Position numbers and translations under genes: made by a program. From positions 1 through 52,641 of the forward strand of contig NZ_LSUQ01000016.1 of the NCBI RefSeq assembly GCF_001642725.1: a stretch of 52,641 bases of DNA, given 5' to 3'. This stretch comes from Ferroacidibacillus organovorans (GTDB lineage: Bacteria; Bacillota; Bacilli; Alicyclobacillales; SLC66). The notes under the pieces are model-generated. The model did no database searches. It saw only the letters and a program-made list of their open reading frames with translations, and was not told where the DNA came from. This document shows, piece after piece, positions 12,922-19,794 of this stretch. The number at the start of each line of letters is the position of its first letter. The stretch's first letter is position 1.

Positions 12922-15165
12922 TTATGCAATCACGTTTCGTCCCGCATCGTGCGCCTCATACAAGCGTTCGCGCAGAATCCGATCGAGTACCTCAAGGGTT
13001 GTGACAAGATCTGCAAACTGCGTGTACAGCGCGACCGGCGCGAGACGAACGATGTTCGGCGGCCGAAAATCAGGCGTCACACCGTGTTCTTTGAGCGCCT
13101 TCGCAATGCGATCGGCGTGTGGGTGAAGCAGTGCCACATGTCCACCGCGGGCCTCGGCTGCGCGTGGCGTGCCAATCTGCAGTTCGGGGTATAGCGCGCC
13201 AAGTTGCTCAAGACCCTCCATGAGAAGGTCCGTTAGCGCGAGCGATTTCTCGCGAATCCGGTCGATGCCGATGTCAAGAAAAAGCGGAAGCACGCCAGCA
13301 AGACCGGCAAGGCTCAACATGTGCGGCGTGCCCTGCTGAAATGCGCCTGCGCCTTTTGCGCGCGCAAACGACGGCGCCATGTCAAACTGGCGTGTCTTAT
13401 CCGATCCCCACCAGCCTGGAAACGCGGGGGGCACAGCGTGATGGCGCTCGTGGATAAAAAGTCCAGCCACAGCGCCCGGGCCCGCCGAGAGGTACTTGTA
13501 GTGGCACCACACCGCAAAATCCACCTGGTCATCATGCAACGCATGTGGCATCGCGCCAATCGAGTGCGAGAGGTCGACTCCCAGGAGAATCCCCTGCGAT
13601 CGCGCTCTGGCTGCAATCGGAGCGATAGGGAGTCGCTGACCGGACTGATAGAGTACACTTGAGAAAAAGGCAAGTCCCACATCGTCGCGCATCTGAGTGA
13701 GCAAGTCGTCGATCGATAGGTGTCCATCACGCGAGTCCACCCACACGAGATCCCGCTCCGGATCGCCGCCTTGGTTTGCCACGTGCGCCTTGATCGCGTA
13801 CACGTCCGTCGGAAAATTGAGCGCATCGATCAAAACCCGCCGTTTTCCGGCGCGCGGCTTATGAAGCGTCGCCAAGAGATGGTGAAGGTTGGATGTGGTC
13901 GAGCCGGTTACTGCGACCTCGCTCGGTTTGGCTCCGATGAGCGTGGCCACTCCCTTGGCGCATGACTCGGCCATGGAAAACCACGGATCCGGCTCGCTTG
14001 ACCAGCCGTCAATCCCCGAGTGTTTCCACGTCTCAAGAACGCCTAACACCGCTTGTTCTGCGTCGACAGACAGAAGCCCGAGCGAGTTTCCGTCCAAGTA
14101 GATTCCTTGCGGAAGATAAAAGCGATCGCGCATGCTGCGCAGCGGATCCGACGCGTCAAGTGTGAGCGCTCGCTCGCGCAGCGCCTGCCAGTCTTTGCCG
14201 TTAACGTCTGTCCTAAAGCCCGCCACGCCTTTTACACCCCATTCTAATACTCCCACGCGCGGATGACTCGAAGAAACCATGTCAAGATCAGCCGCCTTCG
14301 CGTTAAACTCCACCTGCTCGACACTCTTGCAGCCGGGGATGACGCTTGTCACCGCAGGATGCATGAGGCACCACGCCAAGGCCCACTGCGCCATGTCGAC
14401 ACCTTCTGGAACCTCTGCGCGCGCGATCTCTTCAACCTGCTTCAATTGTGCCTGAACCGTCTCCTGCGCACGATTGGCTCGCACATCCTGCCCTGAAAAG
14501 ACGGTGCCCGGCTTATACTTGCCGCTCAAAAAGCCACTCGCCAGAGGCACGCGCGCAAGCACGCCGAGATTTTGCTGCTCGCACGAGGGAAAGACGCGCT
14601 CCTCCGGTTTGCGGTCGATGCGATTGTACACGACTTGAATCACCTCCGCATTGACGCGGCTCGCGTTCTCCGTTTGGAGGAGATTGTCGTTGCTGCCAAT
14701 TGAGATGCCCAAATGCCTGATCTTTCCCGCCTGTACCTGTTTGTCGAGCATCGTCCACACGTCATCCTGTTGAAACGAATCGTCACTCCCTGAGTGAAAC
14801 TGGTACACGTCGATGTAATCCGTGCGCAGCGCCTTGAGAGAATCCTCCAATTGCTTTTTTATTTCATCGGCTGTCCACAGTTGGACTCGACTGGCATGTC
14901 CGCTAAACTTGTGCCCAAACTTTGTGGCAATCACCCACTGGTCCCGCTCGCGCGATGTCGCACCGCCGACGAGTTCCTCCGACAAGTGATCCCCATAGCA
15001 CTCTGCCGTATCGATGAGATTGATCCCGAGTTCCTTGCCTCGTCCAATCATCGCATCCACTTCGCGCTGCGAGAAATCCTTGCCCCACTCTCCGCCAAAC
15101 TGCCACGTGCCAATGCCTATCACCGATACCTTTTGTCCTGTCTTGCCGAGCTTTCGATATTTCAC
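12922..15165 (-). CDS. Aldo/keto reductase-kynureninase fusion protein
   Basis: One uninterrupted frame of 747 codons encodes two complete enzymes. Residues 1 to about 300 are an aldo/keto reductase, MKYRKLGKTG at the start, with the catalytic tetrad D52, Y57, K82 and H124 (LIDTAECYG, IATKFG, DVYQFHS) and the family end SVIPGCKSVEQVEFNAKAADL. After a linker of about 25 residues (LEWGVKGVAGFRTDVNG) comes a full kynureninase: IYLDGNSLGLL, VTGSTTSNLHHLL, GVDLSHSIGAMPHAL, the PLP lysine in FAVWCHYKYLSAGPG (about K557), and GWWG. Kynureninase cleaves kynurenine to anthranilate and alanine. The GTG at 15165 is chosen because the ATG at 15174 touches the AGGAG site. No other tryptophan-catabolism gene is nearby. 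A lost stop codon between two former genes, or an assembly error, is possible. Confidence 0.85.
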   Translation of the reverse strand: MKYRKLGKTGQKVSVIGIGTWQFGGEWGKDFSQREVDAMIGRGKELGINLIDTAECYGDHLSEELVGGATSRERDQWVIATKFGHKFSGHASRVQLWTADEIKKQLEDSLKALRTDYIDVYQFHSGSDDSFQQDDVWTMLDKQVQAGKIRHLGISIGSNDNLLQTENASRVNAEVIQVVYNRIDRKPEERVFPSCEQQNLGVLARVPLASGFLSGKYKPGTVFSGQDVRANRAQETVQAQLKQVEEIARAEVPEGVDMAQWALAWCLMHPAVTSVIPGCKSVEQVEFNAKAADLDMVSSSHPRVGVLEWGVKGVAGFRTDVNGKDWQALRERALTLDASDPLRSMRDRFYLPQGIYLDGNSLGLLSVDAEQAVLGVLETWKHSGIDGWSSEPDPWFSMAESCAKGVATLIGAKPSEVAVTGSTTSNLHHLLATLHKPRAGKRRVLIDALNFPTDVYAIKAHVANQGGDPERDLVWVDSRDGHLSIDDLLTQMRDDVGLAFFSSVLYQSGQRLPIAPIAARARSQGILLGVDLSHSIGAMPHALHDDQVDFAVWCHYKYLSAGPGAVAGLFIHERHHAVPPAFPGWWGSDKTRQFDMAPSFARAKGAGAFQQGTPHMLSLAGLAGVLPLFLDIGIDRIREKSLALTDLLMEGLEQLGALYPELQIGTPRAAEARGGHVALLHPHADRIAKALKEHGVTPDFRPPNIVRLAPVALYTQFADLVTTLEVLDRILRERLYEAHDAGRNVIA

Positions 15166-15258
15166 ATGGCTCATCTCCTATGTACATTGATTTCAACTTT
15201 AGCGCCTAGACCCGAGCGAACATCTACGAGGTAAGCATAACATGTTCGACAAGTTCAC

Positions 15259-16029
15259 CTATGCAAATAAGAATGAGAATACATCCGGAATCCTCTTCCG
15301 AAACTCTGAATAATTGTGTGCCGCGCCATTTACCAACTGAAAATGGGTATGCGAAACTTTACTCTTCACGATATCGTAGATCGCTTTATTCGAGTTCACA
15401 AATTCTTGACTGATCCGCGGATCCCCCATCGCTTCTTCCGTACCACAGTCCATATAAAACCGTTCGAGCAAAGAAAGATCCGACTCACGCAATAGCGCTT
15501 CGATTTTTTCCTGGTTCCGGTAAAATCCAGAAGAGATACCCGCCACTCTACGGAAAACTTCGGGATACTGACATGCTGCAAATGATGAAATCAATCCTCC
15601 AAGCGAAACCCCTGCAAGATACGTTTGATGAACACGCGTGCGAAAGGTACCGTCGATCCTCGGTTTCAGTTCATTGACCAAAAAATCAACATAGGCGTTA
15701 CCCTTGCCACCCATAGTTTGTCGATATCCTATGATTCTTTCACTGTACGCGCCATTCATCCACGGACAATACTCATCGATGCGTTCTTCACGAGAAGCGG
15801 CAGCATCGATCCCTACCACAATAAGCTCCAGACTCGTTTTCTCTAGATACAACTCTAATCCTAATGAAACACCACCTATGGCATCCCCATCTCGAAAAAC
15901 ATTCCTTCCATCGTGCATATAGAGCACTGGATAATGCGCTTCACTGTCGAAATAATCCCGCGGAAGATAAACCCTGATGGTTCTCTCCGTATGAAACGGC
16001 GTCATTTTCATTGAGAATGTCTGAAGCAA
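15259..16029 (-). CDS. Esterase of the alpha/beta-hydrolase fold (PF00756 type)
   Basis: A 256-residue putative esterase similar to the enterochelin-esterase/esterase D group. The nucleophile elbow AGVSLGGLIS contains GxSxG, a C-terminal GAAHNYSEFRKR supplies the probable catalytic histidine, and an Asp or Glu in DCGTEEAMGDPR could complete the triad. PVLYMHDGRNVF near residue 35 is the typical strand-turn. There is no signal peptide, so it is cytoplasmic. It starts at TTG with AAGAGG nine bases upstream; an in-frame ATG follows at 16011. It lies 85 bases downstream of the peptide gene of the RRNPP pair in the same orientation without an evident terminator, so it may belong to that operon. 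A paralogue lies at 32904-33626. The substrate is unknown. Confidence 0.75.
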   Translation of the reverse strand: MLQTFSMKMTPFHTERTIRVYLPRDYFDSEAHYPVLYMHDGRNVFRDGDAIGGVSLGLELYLEKTSLELIVVGIDAAASREERIDEYCPWMNGAYSERIIGYRQTMGGKGNAYVDFLVNELKPRIDGTFRTRVHQTYLAGVSLGGLISSFAACQYPEVFRRVAGISSGFYRNQEKIEALLRESDLSLLERFYMDCGTEEAMGDPRISQEFVNSNKAIYDIVKSKVSHTHFQLVNGAAHNYSEFRKRIPDVFSFLFA

Positions 16030-16114
16030 GGCGCATTACCTCTTTTTTATTTTGATATTGCATTAATGAGGATCGAAAATAATCATAAATTGATCGAATT
16101 TTTAACCGGTGTCT

Positions 16115-16252
16115 TTATAACGTGTTCGCGGTTTTTTGAATTGGTGGTACTGGTCCTTCAAAATTTGGCTTTATTGCTAAACCATATGTCAATAGAACAA
16201 TTGAAACCGCAAACAAACCGATAAACAAGCATCCTTTACATAAACGTTTCAT
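16115..16252 (-). CDS. Putative secreted signalling propeptide of an RRNPP pair
   Basis: A 45-codon gene whose ATG (16252-16250) shares its A with the TGA stop of the upstream regulator (TGATG), a classic translational-coupling arrangement. An AAGGTG Shine-Dalgarno lies inside the regulator's last codons. The product starts MKRLCKG, has a hydrophobic core (about 8-26) and a possible signal-peptidase site after TYGLA (residue 26). This leaves the 19-residue tail IKPNFEGPVPPIQKTANTL. This is the layout of Phr, NprX and PapR propeptides: receptor gene first, then a short exported precursor whose C-terminal part is processed and re-imported. The sequence matches no pheromone I can name. Alternatively it is a small membrane-anchored peptide of other function. 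It is encoded in the same AT-rich style as the regulator. Confidence 0.72.
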   Translation of the reverse strand: MKRLCKGCLFIGLFAVSIVLLTYGLAIKPNFEGPVPPIQKTANTL

Positions 16253-17457
16253 CACGATGCACCTTCCGTAGGACTGAATTTTGAAACTAACGCCAAGACG
16301 GAGCTTGCTTCATCGTACGCAAGGGAACTTTGCCCCGCTCGTGCTCGGCGAAGTGCTCCACTCGCAGCATGATAATTGTCGAAAGCTAAATAGTATTCGG
16401 CGATGGCCAACCAAATTCGCGCGTGAGAAGAAACTGTGTTTGGGAGTGCTTCGATCTGCGTCAGGGCTTCATCACCTACCACGCGGTTTTTAGTACCTGC
16501 CGCGATAAGAATTTTTTCATAAAGCAATTGACCGAGCGCCTCAACATTGTTCTTTTTAATTGCTAGACATTCGTCAAGTAATGTGAGCGCTTGATTCCAC
16601 TCCTTAGCCAATCGATGCAAAACCACACGGGCATGTTTCAATTCTGTCTTAATTTCACTCATCCCAAGATTATCCGATAGTTTCTGGATTCGCTGCAACC
16701 GACCTTCCACGTGATCTATCATCCCTCTATTGAGGTGAGTAGTCACCCATCCCAATAATGCCCATACCTCTAAATGACCGTCACCGCACTGTTTGGCTGC
16801 TTCAATAGATTCTTCAAAATAACATTCGGCATGTTGCAAATCTCCCATTAATAAATATCCACTACCGATATTGATATGCATGCGGAGCCATCGCTCATCA
16901 GAGGGACTCACCAAACTGCTTGCAAGTGAAAAAAACGTAATAGAATGATCATTCTGCCCTAATTCTCGATAACAACGTGCTAATGTTTGTAGAAACGGGT
17001 ACATTGTATCATCTGAATTCGGAAACTCCCGCTGAACCAGCAAGGGCAACAATGTGTTAAGCGCATCGTGCCATTGCCCAAGTTCACACTGTGCCAAACC
17101 TTTATGCCATTGAGCATGCGATGCTTTATGCGTGTTGTTATAGGAACGGCAAAGTTCTAACAAGTTATCCCAGCATTTGAGAGCTTCAGACCAACGTCCT
17201 TCTTTTTCGGCAAAATTACCTTGTTTAAAAAGAATTAATAACAACTTATTTACCTTTTCATCTATATTGTTATCGAAAAAAACGGAAACAGAAACATCCA
17301 ATTTTCTTGCGAAATACTCGAGGTTCTCGTAGCTGGGGAGTCGTTCTCCAGATTCAAAAAGACTAATCAATTGCCTTGAAACTCCATTCGTGGCGAGATC
17401 ACTTTGTTTTAATCTTCGTTCCAATCGAATACTCCGCAACGTTTCTCCGAAAGGCAT
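16252..17457 (-). CDS. RRNPP-type HTH-TPR transcriptional regulator
   Basis: A 401-residue protein with an N-terminal XRE helix-turn-helix (residues 5-60: IRLERRLKQSDLATNGVSRQLISLFESGERLPSYENLEYFARKL). A long all-helical tetratricopeptide region follows (about 70-395; for example NFAEKEGRWSEALKCWDNLL, LARCYRELGQNDHSITFFSLA, NIGSGYLLMGDLQHAECYFEESIEAAK). Size and architecture resemble NprR/PlcR-like peptide receptors, in which TPR repeats bind a re-imported oligopeptide and change DNA binding. GGGGGTT precedes the ATG. The stop overlaps the propeptide start. The gene faces away from the lipoprotein at 17728, and the 270-base gap between them holds palindromes suitable as operators. Base composition is visibly poorer in GC than flanking housekeeping genes, suggesting acquisition. 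Confidence 0.85.
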   Translation of the reverse strand: MPFGETLRSIRLERRLKQSDLATNGVSRQLISLFESGERLPSYENLEYFARKLDVSVSVFFDNNIDEKVNKLLLILFKQGNFAEKEGRWSEALKCWDNLLELCRSYNNTHKASHAQWHKGLAQCELGQWHDALNTLLPLLVQREFPNSDDTMYPFLQTLARCYRELGQNDHSITFFSLASSLVSPSDERWLRMHINIGSGYLLMGDLQHAECYFEESIEAAKQCGDGHLEVWALLGWVTTHLNRGMIDHVEGRLQRIQKLSDNLGMSEIKTELKHARVVLHRLAKEWNQALTLLDECLAIKKNNVEALGQLLYEKILIAAGTKNRVVGDEALTQIEALPNTVSSHARIWLAIAEYYLAFDNYHAASGALRRARAGQSSLAYDEASSVLALVSKFSPTEGAS

Positions 17458-17547
17458 TTTTCAACCCCCAATCTCAAGCTGGCAATTTTAAAGAATGATT
17501 TATAACAGTAATTTAACACGATAAATCAGATTTCCTAAAAACTCACG

Positions 17548-17571
17548 TGACACAAATTGTAACTTATGTCA
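17548..17571. promoter_or_regulatory. Candidate operator, 24-bp imperfect palindrome
   Basis: TGACA at 17548-17552 and TGTCA at 17567-17571 bound a 24-bp element in which 9 of 12 base pairs are symmetric. It lies in the divergent region between the HTH-TPR regulator and the lipoprotein gene, where an autoregulatory RRNPP protein would be expected to bind. Binding is inferred. Confidence 0.45.
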
Positions 17572-17574
17572 TGC

Positions 17575-17589
17575 GTGTATCCGATACAC
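17575..17589. promoter_or_regulatory. Candidate operator, perfect palindrome
   Basis: GTGTATCCGATACAC is a perfect 6-3-6 inverted repeat three bases from the 24-bp palindrome. The two sites together could bind two dimers of the adjacent regulator or of another factor. No protein can be assigned from sequence alone. Confidence 0.4.
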
Positions 17590-17699
17590 AAAAATGATAA
17601 GGTTTCCTTAGAGTACTCAGCAATACAAAATGACCAAGGTGATTATATTTTGTAATTCTATACATTCAATGTTCAAAACGAGGAGATCGAGTATCGCGG

Positions 17700-17719
17700 C
17701 CTCCTAACCTACCAGGAGG
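17700..17719 (+). promoter_or_regulatory. Hairpin occluding the lipoprotein Shine-Dalgarno
   Basis: CCTCCT (17700-17705) is exactly complementary to the AGGAGG Shine-Dalgarno (17714-17719) with an 8-base loop AACCTACC. The stem would hide the ribosome-binding site of the lipoprotein at 17728, suggesting translational control or simply lowered expression. Confidence 0.45.
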
Positions 17720-17727
17720 TATATCCA

Positions 17728-18867
17728 ATGCGCAAAACACAAATAGCTACCCTTCTTTTACTACCCGCGATCCTTACAGGTTGTGCATCGACCACCTCTG
17801 CGCATTCTAATCATCCAACAAAAGGGTCACACTCTGCAACAAACGTCTCAAATGCCACGACTAAAGAAATCAATGCAACCCATTTTGGCTACGAGAGTTA
17901 CGGAATAAAAATCCACTTTTCCTCAAATAAATATCAAGTTCAAGCGTATACTCCCTCTCTTGGTTTTATAGGCATAAACTCGGCTCTTAAACCCTATTCT
18001 CGCTATAAATTCAAAGCTGGGTACGGATCCATGATTCAGCTAAGCACCAACAAGGTGTTGCCTCAACCTTCGCCAATTATTGGATATGAACCCGCCTTTA
18101 TCCTCTCGAACGGACAGTTTTTGTGCTATATCTATCAGTCTCAAGGAATAGGCCCTGATTACGGCGAGATCGTCTACGCCTACAACATTAAAACTAAAAT
18201 TACAACTAAACTCTGGAACCCAGCGAATGGCACAAATCAGCAACTCTCTAATTTTCATCTAACCGGAAATCAGCTCTACTTTGCGGTTCAAAGCACAAAA
18301 GGAAACACCGCATTTGTTCAAATTCATCGAGTTAATTTGCCGACCATGCGTCAGAACATTGTATTTTCATCTAAAGGCGGTATCAATCAATACGTCGTGG
18401 AGGATTTTGCTATATCCAAAGGAAAAATTGGAATCATTTGGACGCCAGGGAGTCATTTCATACCTGTCGTAGACCACAACCCGTACGAACCGTATGATGT
18501 AACCATTGGAGCCATCAACGGAACTACAAAAAAAGTCATATTTAGAGGCGTTAATGCAGGTGCCTTCAATATGCAAGCGAAAAACGGAATATGGGCTTGG
18601 TCTGATCTAACATCCGGTGTAGAATGTTATTCATCACGCATTAACACAGTATGGAATGTCTCCAGTCAACCATCCTATGTGAAAACAGATGGTGTCACAG
18701 TATGGTGGAGATCTGTAAATACGAATCAATGTGGTGGATTTGATACAAAAACACAAAAATTTGTTAAATTCAACCAAATAAAAGCTCCATTCACCCCAAT
18801 TATTTCAGACGGTCGCGTAATACTGCTTACTGGCATCCACACAGATTATTGGACTCTAACCAAGTGA
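17728..18867 (+). CDS. Lipoprotein of unknown function
   Basis: A 379-residue exported protein. The first 19 residues form a lipoprotein signal ending in the lipobox LTGC (Cys19), followed by a Ser/Thr/His-rich linker to about residue 50. The remainder is rich in beta-strand patterns and aromatic residues, with repeated G-x-W/Y-type turns (GYEPAFILSNGQFLCYIYQ, NGIWAWSDL, DGVTVWWRS, DGRVILLTG). This could be a beta-propeller, but no named family is recognised. It is divergent from the RRNPP regulator and shares its low GC content, so it is a plausible target gene. No obvious partner follows; the next gene is convergent. Signal peptide and lipobox are seen; target status is inferred. Confidence 0.7.
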   Translation: MRKTQIATLLLLPAILTGCASTTSAHSNHPTKGSHSATNVSNATTKEINATHFGYESYGIKIHFSSNKYQVQAYTPSLGFIGINSALKPYSRYKFKAGYGSMIQLSTNKVLPQPSPIIGYEPAFILSNGQFLCYIYQSQGIGPDYGEIVYAYNIKTKITTKLWNPANGTNQQLSNFHLTGNQLYFAVQSTKGNTAFVQIHRVNLPTMRQNIVFSSKGGINQYVVEDFAISKGKIGIIWTPGSHFIPVVDHNPYEPYDVTIGAINGTTKKVIFRGVNAGAFNMQAKNGIWAWSDLTSGVECYSSRINTVWNVSSQPSYVKTDGVTVWWRSVNTNQCGGFDTKTQKFVKFNQIKAPFTPIISDGRVILLTGIHTDYWTLTK

Positions 18868-18959
18868 AAACTCCGCGTTCCGGCGTAAAGATCATACCCA
18901 TGTCAAGGCAGTTCGCTCCTATGCCATTGACTACCCTACATTTGCAGTCGATAAAGAAC

Positions 18960-19607
18960 TCACAAACGCCTAAAGCTCTTGTCGCTCACAGCCTGCGAAG
19001 AGGCACCCTTGGCGTGTGTAACGTTCGGATGGCTAGTGCTTCCCACCGCATTCATAGGCACCCGCCATTTATGCAAGAAGCTCATGATTTCACGCTTTGC
19101 CCGGCTTCGATTTCCGACAATGGTGGCATCGATCGCATAAGTATACCGGTTTCCATAGGCAATCACCCAGTACTCATACGTTGCAATGGTAGAATCAGCC
19201 GCGGCTGGTGGGGTTCTCTCGTTAAGCACGAGCATTACCTTCCCAGCGGATGACGATACCCTTTCGTGACTCAAAACCTGAGAGTGATTTCCCACAACTA
19301 AAAAATACCTTTCATGCTTAACGTATGAAGGTGGCAGACTCGTAATCAGGAGCTGAATCGATACATCCTTCCAGCGAACAGAATGTTCTGGCGTAACAAC
19401 CTTCCCATTCGGCAATGTCAAGGATGTCTGAAACCATTCATTTGTTGGTCTCTTTTGATGAAGGGTCGTTCCCTGGTGAGCCGTATCCTTGCTCCTTGAT
19501 GTGGCATGGGCAGAGCCAGACAAACTACCACAGCCACTGAGGATCAGCAACGATGCACCTAATGTACCGATGAGTAAACGACGATAACTCGATGTGTGTT
19601 TCATCAT
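18960..19607 (-). CDS. Lipoprotein of unknown function
   Basis: A 215-residue predicted lipoprotein with a basic N-terminus, hydrophobic core and lipobox LSGC (Cys26), then a Ser/His/Thr-rich linker to about residue 52. The mature domain (ERYFLVVGNHSQVLSH, STIATYEYWVIAYGNRYTYAIDATIVGNRS) looks like an alpha/beta fold resembling PsbP/DUF-type lipoproteins, but no family can be named. GGGGGA precedes the first of two ATG codons. It is convergent with the 17728 lipoprotein and upstream of the rplT terminator; no operon partner. Composition is intermediate between the AT-rich segment and the housekeeping genes. Confidence 0.7.
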   Translation of the reverse strand: MMKHTSSYRRLLIGTLGASLLILSGCGSLSGSAHATSRSKDTAHQGTTLHQKRPTNEWFQTSLTLPNGKVVTPEHSVRWKDVSIQLLITSLPPSYVKHERYFLVVGNHSQVLSHERVSSSAGKVMLVLNERTPPAAADSTIATYEYWVIAYGNRYTYAIDATIVGNRSRAKREIMSFLHKWRVPMNAVGSTSHPNVTHAKGASSQAVSDKSFRRL

Positions 19608-19662
19608 TTAGTAAATCCCCCCACATTAGCAGATCGATCGCAGTTAACTTGCAAATTACACC

Positions 19663-19694
19663 AAAAGAGCTGCGCCGACTCGCGGACGCAGCTC
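19663..19694 (-). terminator. Terminator of the infC-rpmI-rplT operon
   Basis: On the minus strand GAGCTGCG and CGCAGCTC form an 8-bp stem, extended by TCCG/CGG-like pairs, followed by TTTT. It lies about 100 bases after the rplT stop. Confidence 0.8.
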
Positions 19695-19794
19695 TCTCGA
19701 AATCCTGTGGTATTGTCGCGATCAGCGCAGCGACGCGCCAAACGCGTATAAAACAACCGAACGTGCCGTACGCAGTACAGCAGCGCGCAAGTCT

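Follow-up and report, generated by a model that had tools for sequence, protein, structure and literature searches.

In the NprR-NprX system, an HTH-TPR receptor gene is followed by a small propeptide gene. The propeptide gene of the PlcR-PapR system is located just downstream of the receptor gene, and in the Rap-Phr systems it overlaps or abuts the receptor gene. To our knowledge, NprX contains no diproline. The spore-formers of the group studied here are known for fruit-juice spoilage and for acid-stable proteases.

NprR is described as a regulator of an extracellular protease in Bacillus, and the Rap cluster as lacking a DNA-binding domain (PMC10075063). In the AloR-AloP systems of Paenibacillus, all Alo receptors are reported to carry an N-terminal HTH domain, and a C-terminal fragment is processed from a small secreted precursor (PMC7425212). 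AloR13 controls a spo0E-like gene, and mature AloP13 is SHGRGG, the C-terminal six residues (PMC7425212). Receptor-propeptide pairs have been computed with RRNPP_Detector, which placed a candidate RRNPP system inside 10 biosynthetic gene clusters of the Alicyclobacillaceae (PMC10075063). The main text of that paper makes no mention of acidocaldarius, Kyrpidia, Effusibacillus or proline, and no diproline signal was found in it. In the RRNPP literature searched, no description of a diproline signature was found. No work joining RRNPP systems with Alicyclobacillus was found either; the match for an Alicyclobacillus quorum-sensing pheromone concerns, by its title, nisin and gallium.

Here we describe two genes of Ferroacidibacillus organovorans which, as far as their sequences allow a judgement, very probably constitute an RRNPP-type receptor-propeptide quorum-sensing pair. 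They are located in the window, the whole stretch of 52,641 nucleotides that was analysed. In architecture they agree with RRNPP systems as set out in PMC10075063 and PMC9765709. The order of receptor and propeptide genes and the link to proteases are shared with NprR-NprX as described; the neighbours here are acid proteases, lipoproteins or radical-SAM genes. With PlcR only the HTH domain matches, and the receptors of the present families have about 390-480 aa versus 293 aa in the solved PlcR chain. Unlike Rap as described, the receptors carry an HTH domain, and the likeness to Rap-Phr consists of the overlapping propeptide gene and a match of the subfamily-2 TPR region to a Rap chain. AloR-AloP (PMC7425212), set alongside by its description, is the closest described analogue among those compared in detail. 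The peptides reported here have a diproline core followed by 0 to about 12 further residues, whereas AloP13 as described has no diproline. We regard the receptors as new subfamilies of the RRNPP kind with a shared diproline signature, and some of them may be contained in the supplementary tables of RRNPP_Detector.

Results

The original prediction described an HTH-TPR regulator whose TGA overlaps the ATG of a small gene, with the Shine-Dalgarno sequence of the small gene in the last codons of the regulator and the pair embedded in AT-rich DNA. All of this is borne out by the open reading frames, the Pfam matches and a candidate ribosome-binding site (Table 1), and by a G+C content of 0.43 at 15200-19700 versus 0.54 across the remaining window. 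The single shared base (TGATG) suggests translational coupling, so that receptor and signal would be made together. The product of the small gene, MKRLCKGCLFIGLFAVSIVLLTYGLAIKPNFEGPVPPIQKTANTL, has 45 aa when read from the ATG and 46 aa when read from an in-frame GTG at 16255. Its N-terminus resembles an export signal by eye and by a simple hydropathy filter.

Table 1. Features of the receptor-propeptide locus and its neighbours, in window coordinates
Feature	Position	Strand	Basis
HTH-TPR receptor gene, 401 aa, subfamily 1	16252..17457	-	ORF list, Pfam HTH_3 and TPR, homologues, tree
XRE-type helix-turn-helix domain, residues 7-59	17281..17439	-	Pfam HTH_3, 30.9 bits vs cut-off 23
TPR region, about residues 75-374	16336..17235	-	Pfam TPR_12, TPR_14, TPR_2, TPR_7
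GGAAGGTG, candidate Shine-Dalgarno sequence of the small gene, within the last codons of the receptor gene	16260..16267	-	read from sequence
Propeptide gene, 45 codons and stop, one-base overlap with the receptor stop (TGATG)	16115..16252	-	sequence, ORF list, like ORFs at homologous loci
Signal-sequence-like part, residues 1-26 (MKR..., hydrophobic core, ...YGLA)	16175..16252	-	read from sequence
Diproline core GPVPPIQ, residues 33-39, proposed mature signal	16136..16156	-	alignment A2, 12 subfamily-1 peptides
Divergent lipoprotein gene, likely target	17728..18867	+	homologues by the A. sacchari subfamily-1 locus and two subfamily-3 loci
Co-directional esterase gene 85 bp downstream, possible target	15259..16029	-	Pfam Esterase, E 1.5e-25
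Palindrome GTGTATCCGATACAC between the two divergent genes, weak operator candidate	17575..17589	.	about one expected by chance

The AT-rich region is flanked by core genes, with rplT, infC and thrS on one side and an aldo-keto reductase/kynureninase ORF and a SpoU methylase gene on the other. The former ORF (12922-15174, minus strand) is a single frame of 750 aa in which Pfam matches join an aldo/keto reductase to a kynureninase-like aminotransferase, and it represents either a fusion or a lost stop codon. Between the divergent lipoprotein gene and rplT lies a further lipoprotein-like gene of 215 aa without a Pfam match (18960-19607, minus strand).

The length of the receptor is within the range of about 250-500 aa of RRNPP receptors, and its TPR_12 match reaches 65.5 bits with a cut-off of 30.1. 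Residue N196 in the TPR region is invariant in all nine aligned homologues. Among the solved chains listed, the N-terminal part of the window receptor, and this part only, matches PlcR (E 0.0013), and no full-length match to a named RRNPP receptor was found. The profile of subfamily 2 matches PlcR with its HTH domain (E 4.1e-7) and the Rap chain 6t3h with its TPR region (E 4.6e-6). The likeness to solved RRNPP receptors is partial and weak. It extends to PlcR, Rgg-type and ComR chains for the HTH domain, and higher scores are reached by TPR proteins of other kinds, among them designed and kinesin ones. The genome itself contains two short HTH-only matches to the receptor and no second full-length match, and the other genome of the genus holds no such receptor at E 1e-10, which leaves the pair of the window with no close relative for comparison. 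A peptide-pattern scan of genome contigs and viral contigs with the window protein returned no direct relatives and no phage record.

Receptor matches at E 1e-8 or better were obtained in 12 of 59 genomes of the order (18 matches), and two Alicyclobacillus plasmids carry one, of which pAACI02 is the G019 locus. Conservation of the small ORF beside homologous regulators had been set beforehand as the test of the pair. Including the window locus, a small ORF of 33-45 codons is present at 12 of the 13 loci with an intact receptor 3′ end (11 of the 18 genome matches and the plasmid of Alicyclobacillus sp. TC). The ORFs were chosen by eye from the listed ORFs, and their starts range from 10 bases upstream to 44 bases downstream of the receptor stop. 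Each has a basic start, a hydrophobic core and a diproline tail of the G-x-x-P-P type, such as GVIPPVLN, GPLPPTL, GPSPPWL, GSPPFL and GPVPPIQ. M1 and both prolines are invariant in the 12 peptides (alignment A2). The pAACI02 locus (G019:C3) is counted among the 12 although the HTH part of its receptor is out of frame, and three counted copies (G029:C36, G029:C32 and G027:C44) begin at a contig edge. Outside the 12 are G026:C84, which has lost the 3′ end, and the fragment G029:C37; the distant HTH-TPR matches G051, G007 and G045:C19 have no PP ORF.

The 13th locus is that of A. tengchongensis (G022:C23, two matches). Its receptor gene is split in two frames with the 3′ end intact, and it has no PP ORF. 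Receptor and signal seem to have been lost together in this strain. In place of the propeptide gene, another gene begins right after a ribosome-site-like sequence (L013/L018/L055). On pAACI02 of A. acidocaldarius DSM 446 (L022/L012), the receptor lacks an in-frame HTH domain, the propeptide is intact and spore-germination genes are adjoining. In A. sacchari, A. hesperidum and A. fructus, contigs are interrupted inside the receptor gene (L010, L011, L017, L087, L088, L089), as a module present in several near-identical copies would be expected to cause.

Among 398 genomes sampled from the class, 12 gave a match to the receptor profile at E 1e-20, of which 10 belong to the order. The matches in the two genomes outside the order are weak and have no adjoining PP ORF. 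A short-peptide tblastn search against plasmids returned nothing and is uninformative, since pAACI02 holds such a peptide. Two plasmid records, whose gene tables are incomplete, list no CDS for the propeptide genes, and ordinary annotation is thus likely to miss them.

The 59 genomes were also searched with a profile built solely from the 12 propeptides. Of the best 18 matches (E up to 0.0444), 11 are training loci and seven lie outside the training set. All seven adjoin an HTH-TPR receptor or its 3′ remnant: three lie at contig edges by the receptor 3′ end, and four by a receptor of a different clade with a divergent peptide gene. Three weaker matches that were opened (G002, G049 and G007; E > 0.0444) have no adjoining receptor by profile search. 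When single peptides, or the clade of close copies, were left out of the profile, eight of the nine propeptides tested were the top segment of their own locus. The window peptide, left out in the same way, ranked second among the 1528 segments of a six-frame translation of the window (E 1.1). By its sequence it is a divergent family member, and this rank is the weakest point for the window itself.

The background rate of the motif was estimated from 188 signal-like small ORFs in 234 kb, of which 24 have PP after residue 20. As 13 of these belong to the family, PP occurs in 11 of 175 unrelated signal-like small ORFs (about 6%). At this rate the window ORF alone is unconvincing, and it is the family that carries the case. 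No signal-like PP ORF adjoins five distant HTH-TPR proteins (L004, L014, L019, L033 and L034); at L004 there is a divergent signal-like ORF without PP. Six distant receptors, a count that leaves out L138 and L133, a truncated further copy in G012, likewise have no PP ORF (L129-L132, L134 and L136; L129 and L004 denote one locus). Four of them (L129, L131, L134 and L136) have a PP-less signal-like small ORF in divergent orientation; two of these ORFs end in DGSIPGPGVQL... and one has GLPEPD, which suggests that they could encode further propeptide types.

Eight close copies of the propeptide gene, five reached via the receptor and three via the peptide profile, were similar enough for selection to be measured. 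Over codons 2-32, pN/pS is 0.13 and pS 0.41, summed over all pairs, which are not independent. By this measure the small ORF is under purifying selection in these copies. Conservation covers the hydrophobic stretch as well as the core. Past PP[VI]L, both the sequence and the length of the peptide differ freely. Three homologous precursors (L005, L006 and L021) stop at the core itself. The original prediction named the tail IKPNFEGPVPPIQKTANTL, or a short piece of it, as the signal. Since conservation stops just past the diproline and three homologous precursors end there, the whole tail is unlikely to be the signal, which corrects that proposal. On the simplest reading, the mature signal would be the diproline core, about GPVPPIQ, and the following residues would be trimmed off or irrelevant.

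The four receptors of a different clade reached via the propeptide profile have about 435-450 aa and belong to a second subfamily, in which the peptide gene is divergent from the receptor gene. At E 1e-25 the subfamily-2 profile had matches in nine of the 398 class-wide genomes, every one of them a member of the order; with G050 added, the set comprises 10 loci. At all 10, a signal-like ORF lies divergent from and close to the receptor start. PP is present in nine of these peptides and is mostly followed by [TDL]-P, as in DGLIPPTPF, SHPPDPM and SIPPTPA; the remaining peptide carries IPTVPEPM. In a tree of 23 sequences, subfamilies 1 and 2 each form one clade (support 100/100 and 100/99), with long branches that make their mutual placing unsure. 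A third subfamily was reached via the lipoprotein of the window and occurs in the window's own family (G010, G011 and G012). At its four loci the receptor gene is followed by a downstream propeptide gene, with ...SLPQP[IV]SPPVK[IV]MSGT in three peptides and SPLVKVM in one; the receptor at G012:C59 has an internal deletion. The diproline is thus not absolute, being absent from one subfamily-2 and one subfamily-3 peptide. The invariant prolines of alignment A5 are partly so by choice, as the PP-less subfamily-2 peptide and subfamily 3 were left out of it.

Homologues of the divergent lipoprotein are found in 15 of 59 genomes, own genome included. In G011 and G012 they are divergent from subfamily-3 receptors and are repeatedly accompanied by a protein of secreted type with about 270 aa. 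Six lipoprotein loci were opened widely; two have a receptor and four have none (L122-L125). Acid proteases of the Peptidase_A4 family occur within 3 kb of three of the seven subfamily-1 loci searched (G044:C13, G045:C42 and G032:C16), and pro-kumamolisin domains within 3 kb of six of the 10 subfamily-2 loci (G048, G038, G039, G040, G034 and G058; the G034 frame has 216 aa). By our own arithmetic, fewer than 0.1 protease neighbours would be expected by chance for either set, though related genomes are not independent. The search covered 15 genomes with one to four proteases of each family apiece, and the subfamily-1 genomes G019, G027 and G029 were outside it. Radical-SAM genes adjoin three subfamily-1 loci (the plasmid of strain TC, L043 and L044). 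No acid protease was found near the pair of the window; the copies of this genome are on other contigs. No terminator-like site was called between the small gene and the esterase gene.

The original prediction also invoked divergent operators, and this claim was not supported. The intergenic region contains one short palindrome, about the number expected by chance. No 8-mer is common to four or more of nine upstream regions, and palindromes occur at about chance level by our own arithmetic.

Discussion

We propose that the precursor would be exported via Sec and cleaved after YGLA or nearby, and that further trimming would release a short peptide centred on GPVPPIQ. The peptide would build up with cell density and re-enter the cell via an oligopeptide permease. 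The genome contains eight genes of the SBP_bac_5 (OppA/DppA) binding-protein family, which need not be peptide importers. The re-imported peptide would bind in the TPR groove and alter DNA binding by the receptor. The most likely targets would be neighbouring genes: in the window, the lipoprotein gene in divergent orientation and perhaps the esterase gene on the downstream side, and in relatives the genes for secreted acid proteases or radical-SAM genes.

The assignment to the RRNPP type, as originally proposed, is supported by conservation of the ORF, by purifying selection and by the finding of further receptors with the propeptide profile. The same results bear on the idea that AT-rich DNA has produced the small ORF by chance. 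The background rate of PP in unrelated signal-like ORFs (11 of 175) and the weak profile match of the window peptide speak for it. Retention at 12 of 13 loci, the low pN/pS in relatives and the reciprocal discovery of receptors rule out a chance ORF for the family and make one in the window hardly credible.

Two other explanations accept the small gene as real. It might encode a small membrane protein that is neither cleaved nor taken up again and that works inside the cell, for instance by tethering the HTH-TPR protein to the membrane or as its anti-regulator; the hydrophobic stretch, conserved as well as the core in the close copies, would fit such a role. We consider this improbable, because a mostly polar or proline-rich tail motif is conserved in three subfamilies regardless of gene order, the residues beyond the core differ freely, and the partner has a domain of the peptide-binding type. 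A toxin-antitoxin-like unit, in which a small hydrophobic toxin is under the control of an HTH repressor, would agree with the small hydrophobic product, with the patchy and multicopy distribution of the module, and with profile matches of the HTH domain to RstR and PezA-type repressors that score far below the cut-offs. The TPR domain, the Sec-like start, the conserved diproline tail and the recurrent secreted-protease, lipoprotein and radical-SAM neighbours make such a unit very improbable.

A receptor-propeptide pair in the window would also allow a wider and more tentative reading, which we regard as possible but doubtful. The acidophilic Alicyclobacillales and their plasmids could share a diproline pheromone code, in which short peptides built on x-P-P-x are recognised by receptors of three or more subfamilies that differ in gene order, and thereby activate secreted acid proteases, lipoprotein modules and radical-SAM peptide clusters. 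Under such a code, the prolines may protect the signal from the very acid proteases that it induces, and the likeness of the cores would let plasmid-borne and chromosomal copies respond to each other's signals. Apart from this wider reading, the pairs themselves, if rightly interpreted, would provide a testable signal for spore-formers that spoil fruit juice and make acid-stable proteases, and the addition of a synthetic heptapeptide would be a way to turn on silent radical-SAM peptide clusters.

The acid proteases encoded divergently from two receptors (L041:8980-10044 and L040:9735-10991) themselves contain MGAAAPPIL or MGAAAPPQ just past their hydrophobic start. These segments resemble the apparent pheromone core G-x-x-P-P-x-L, possibly by chance.
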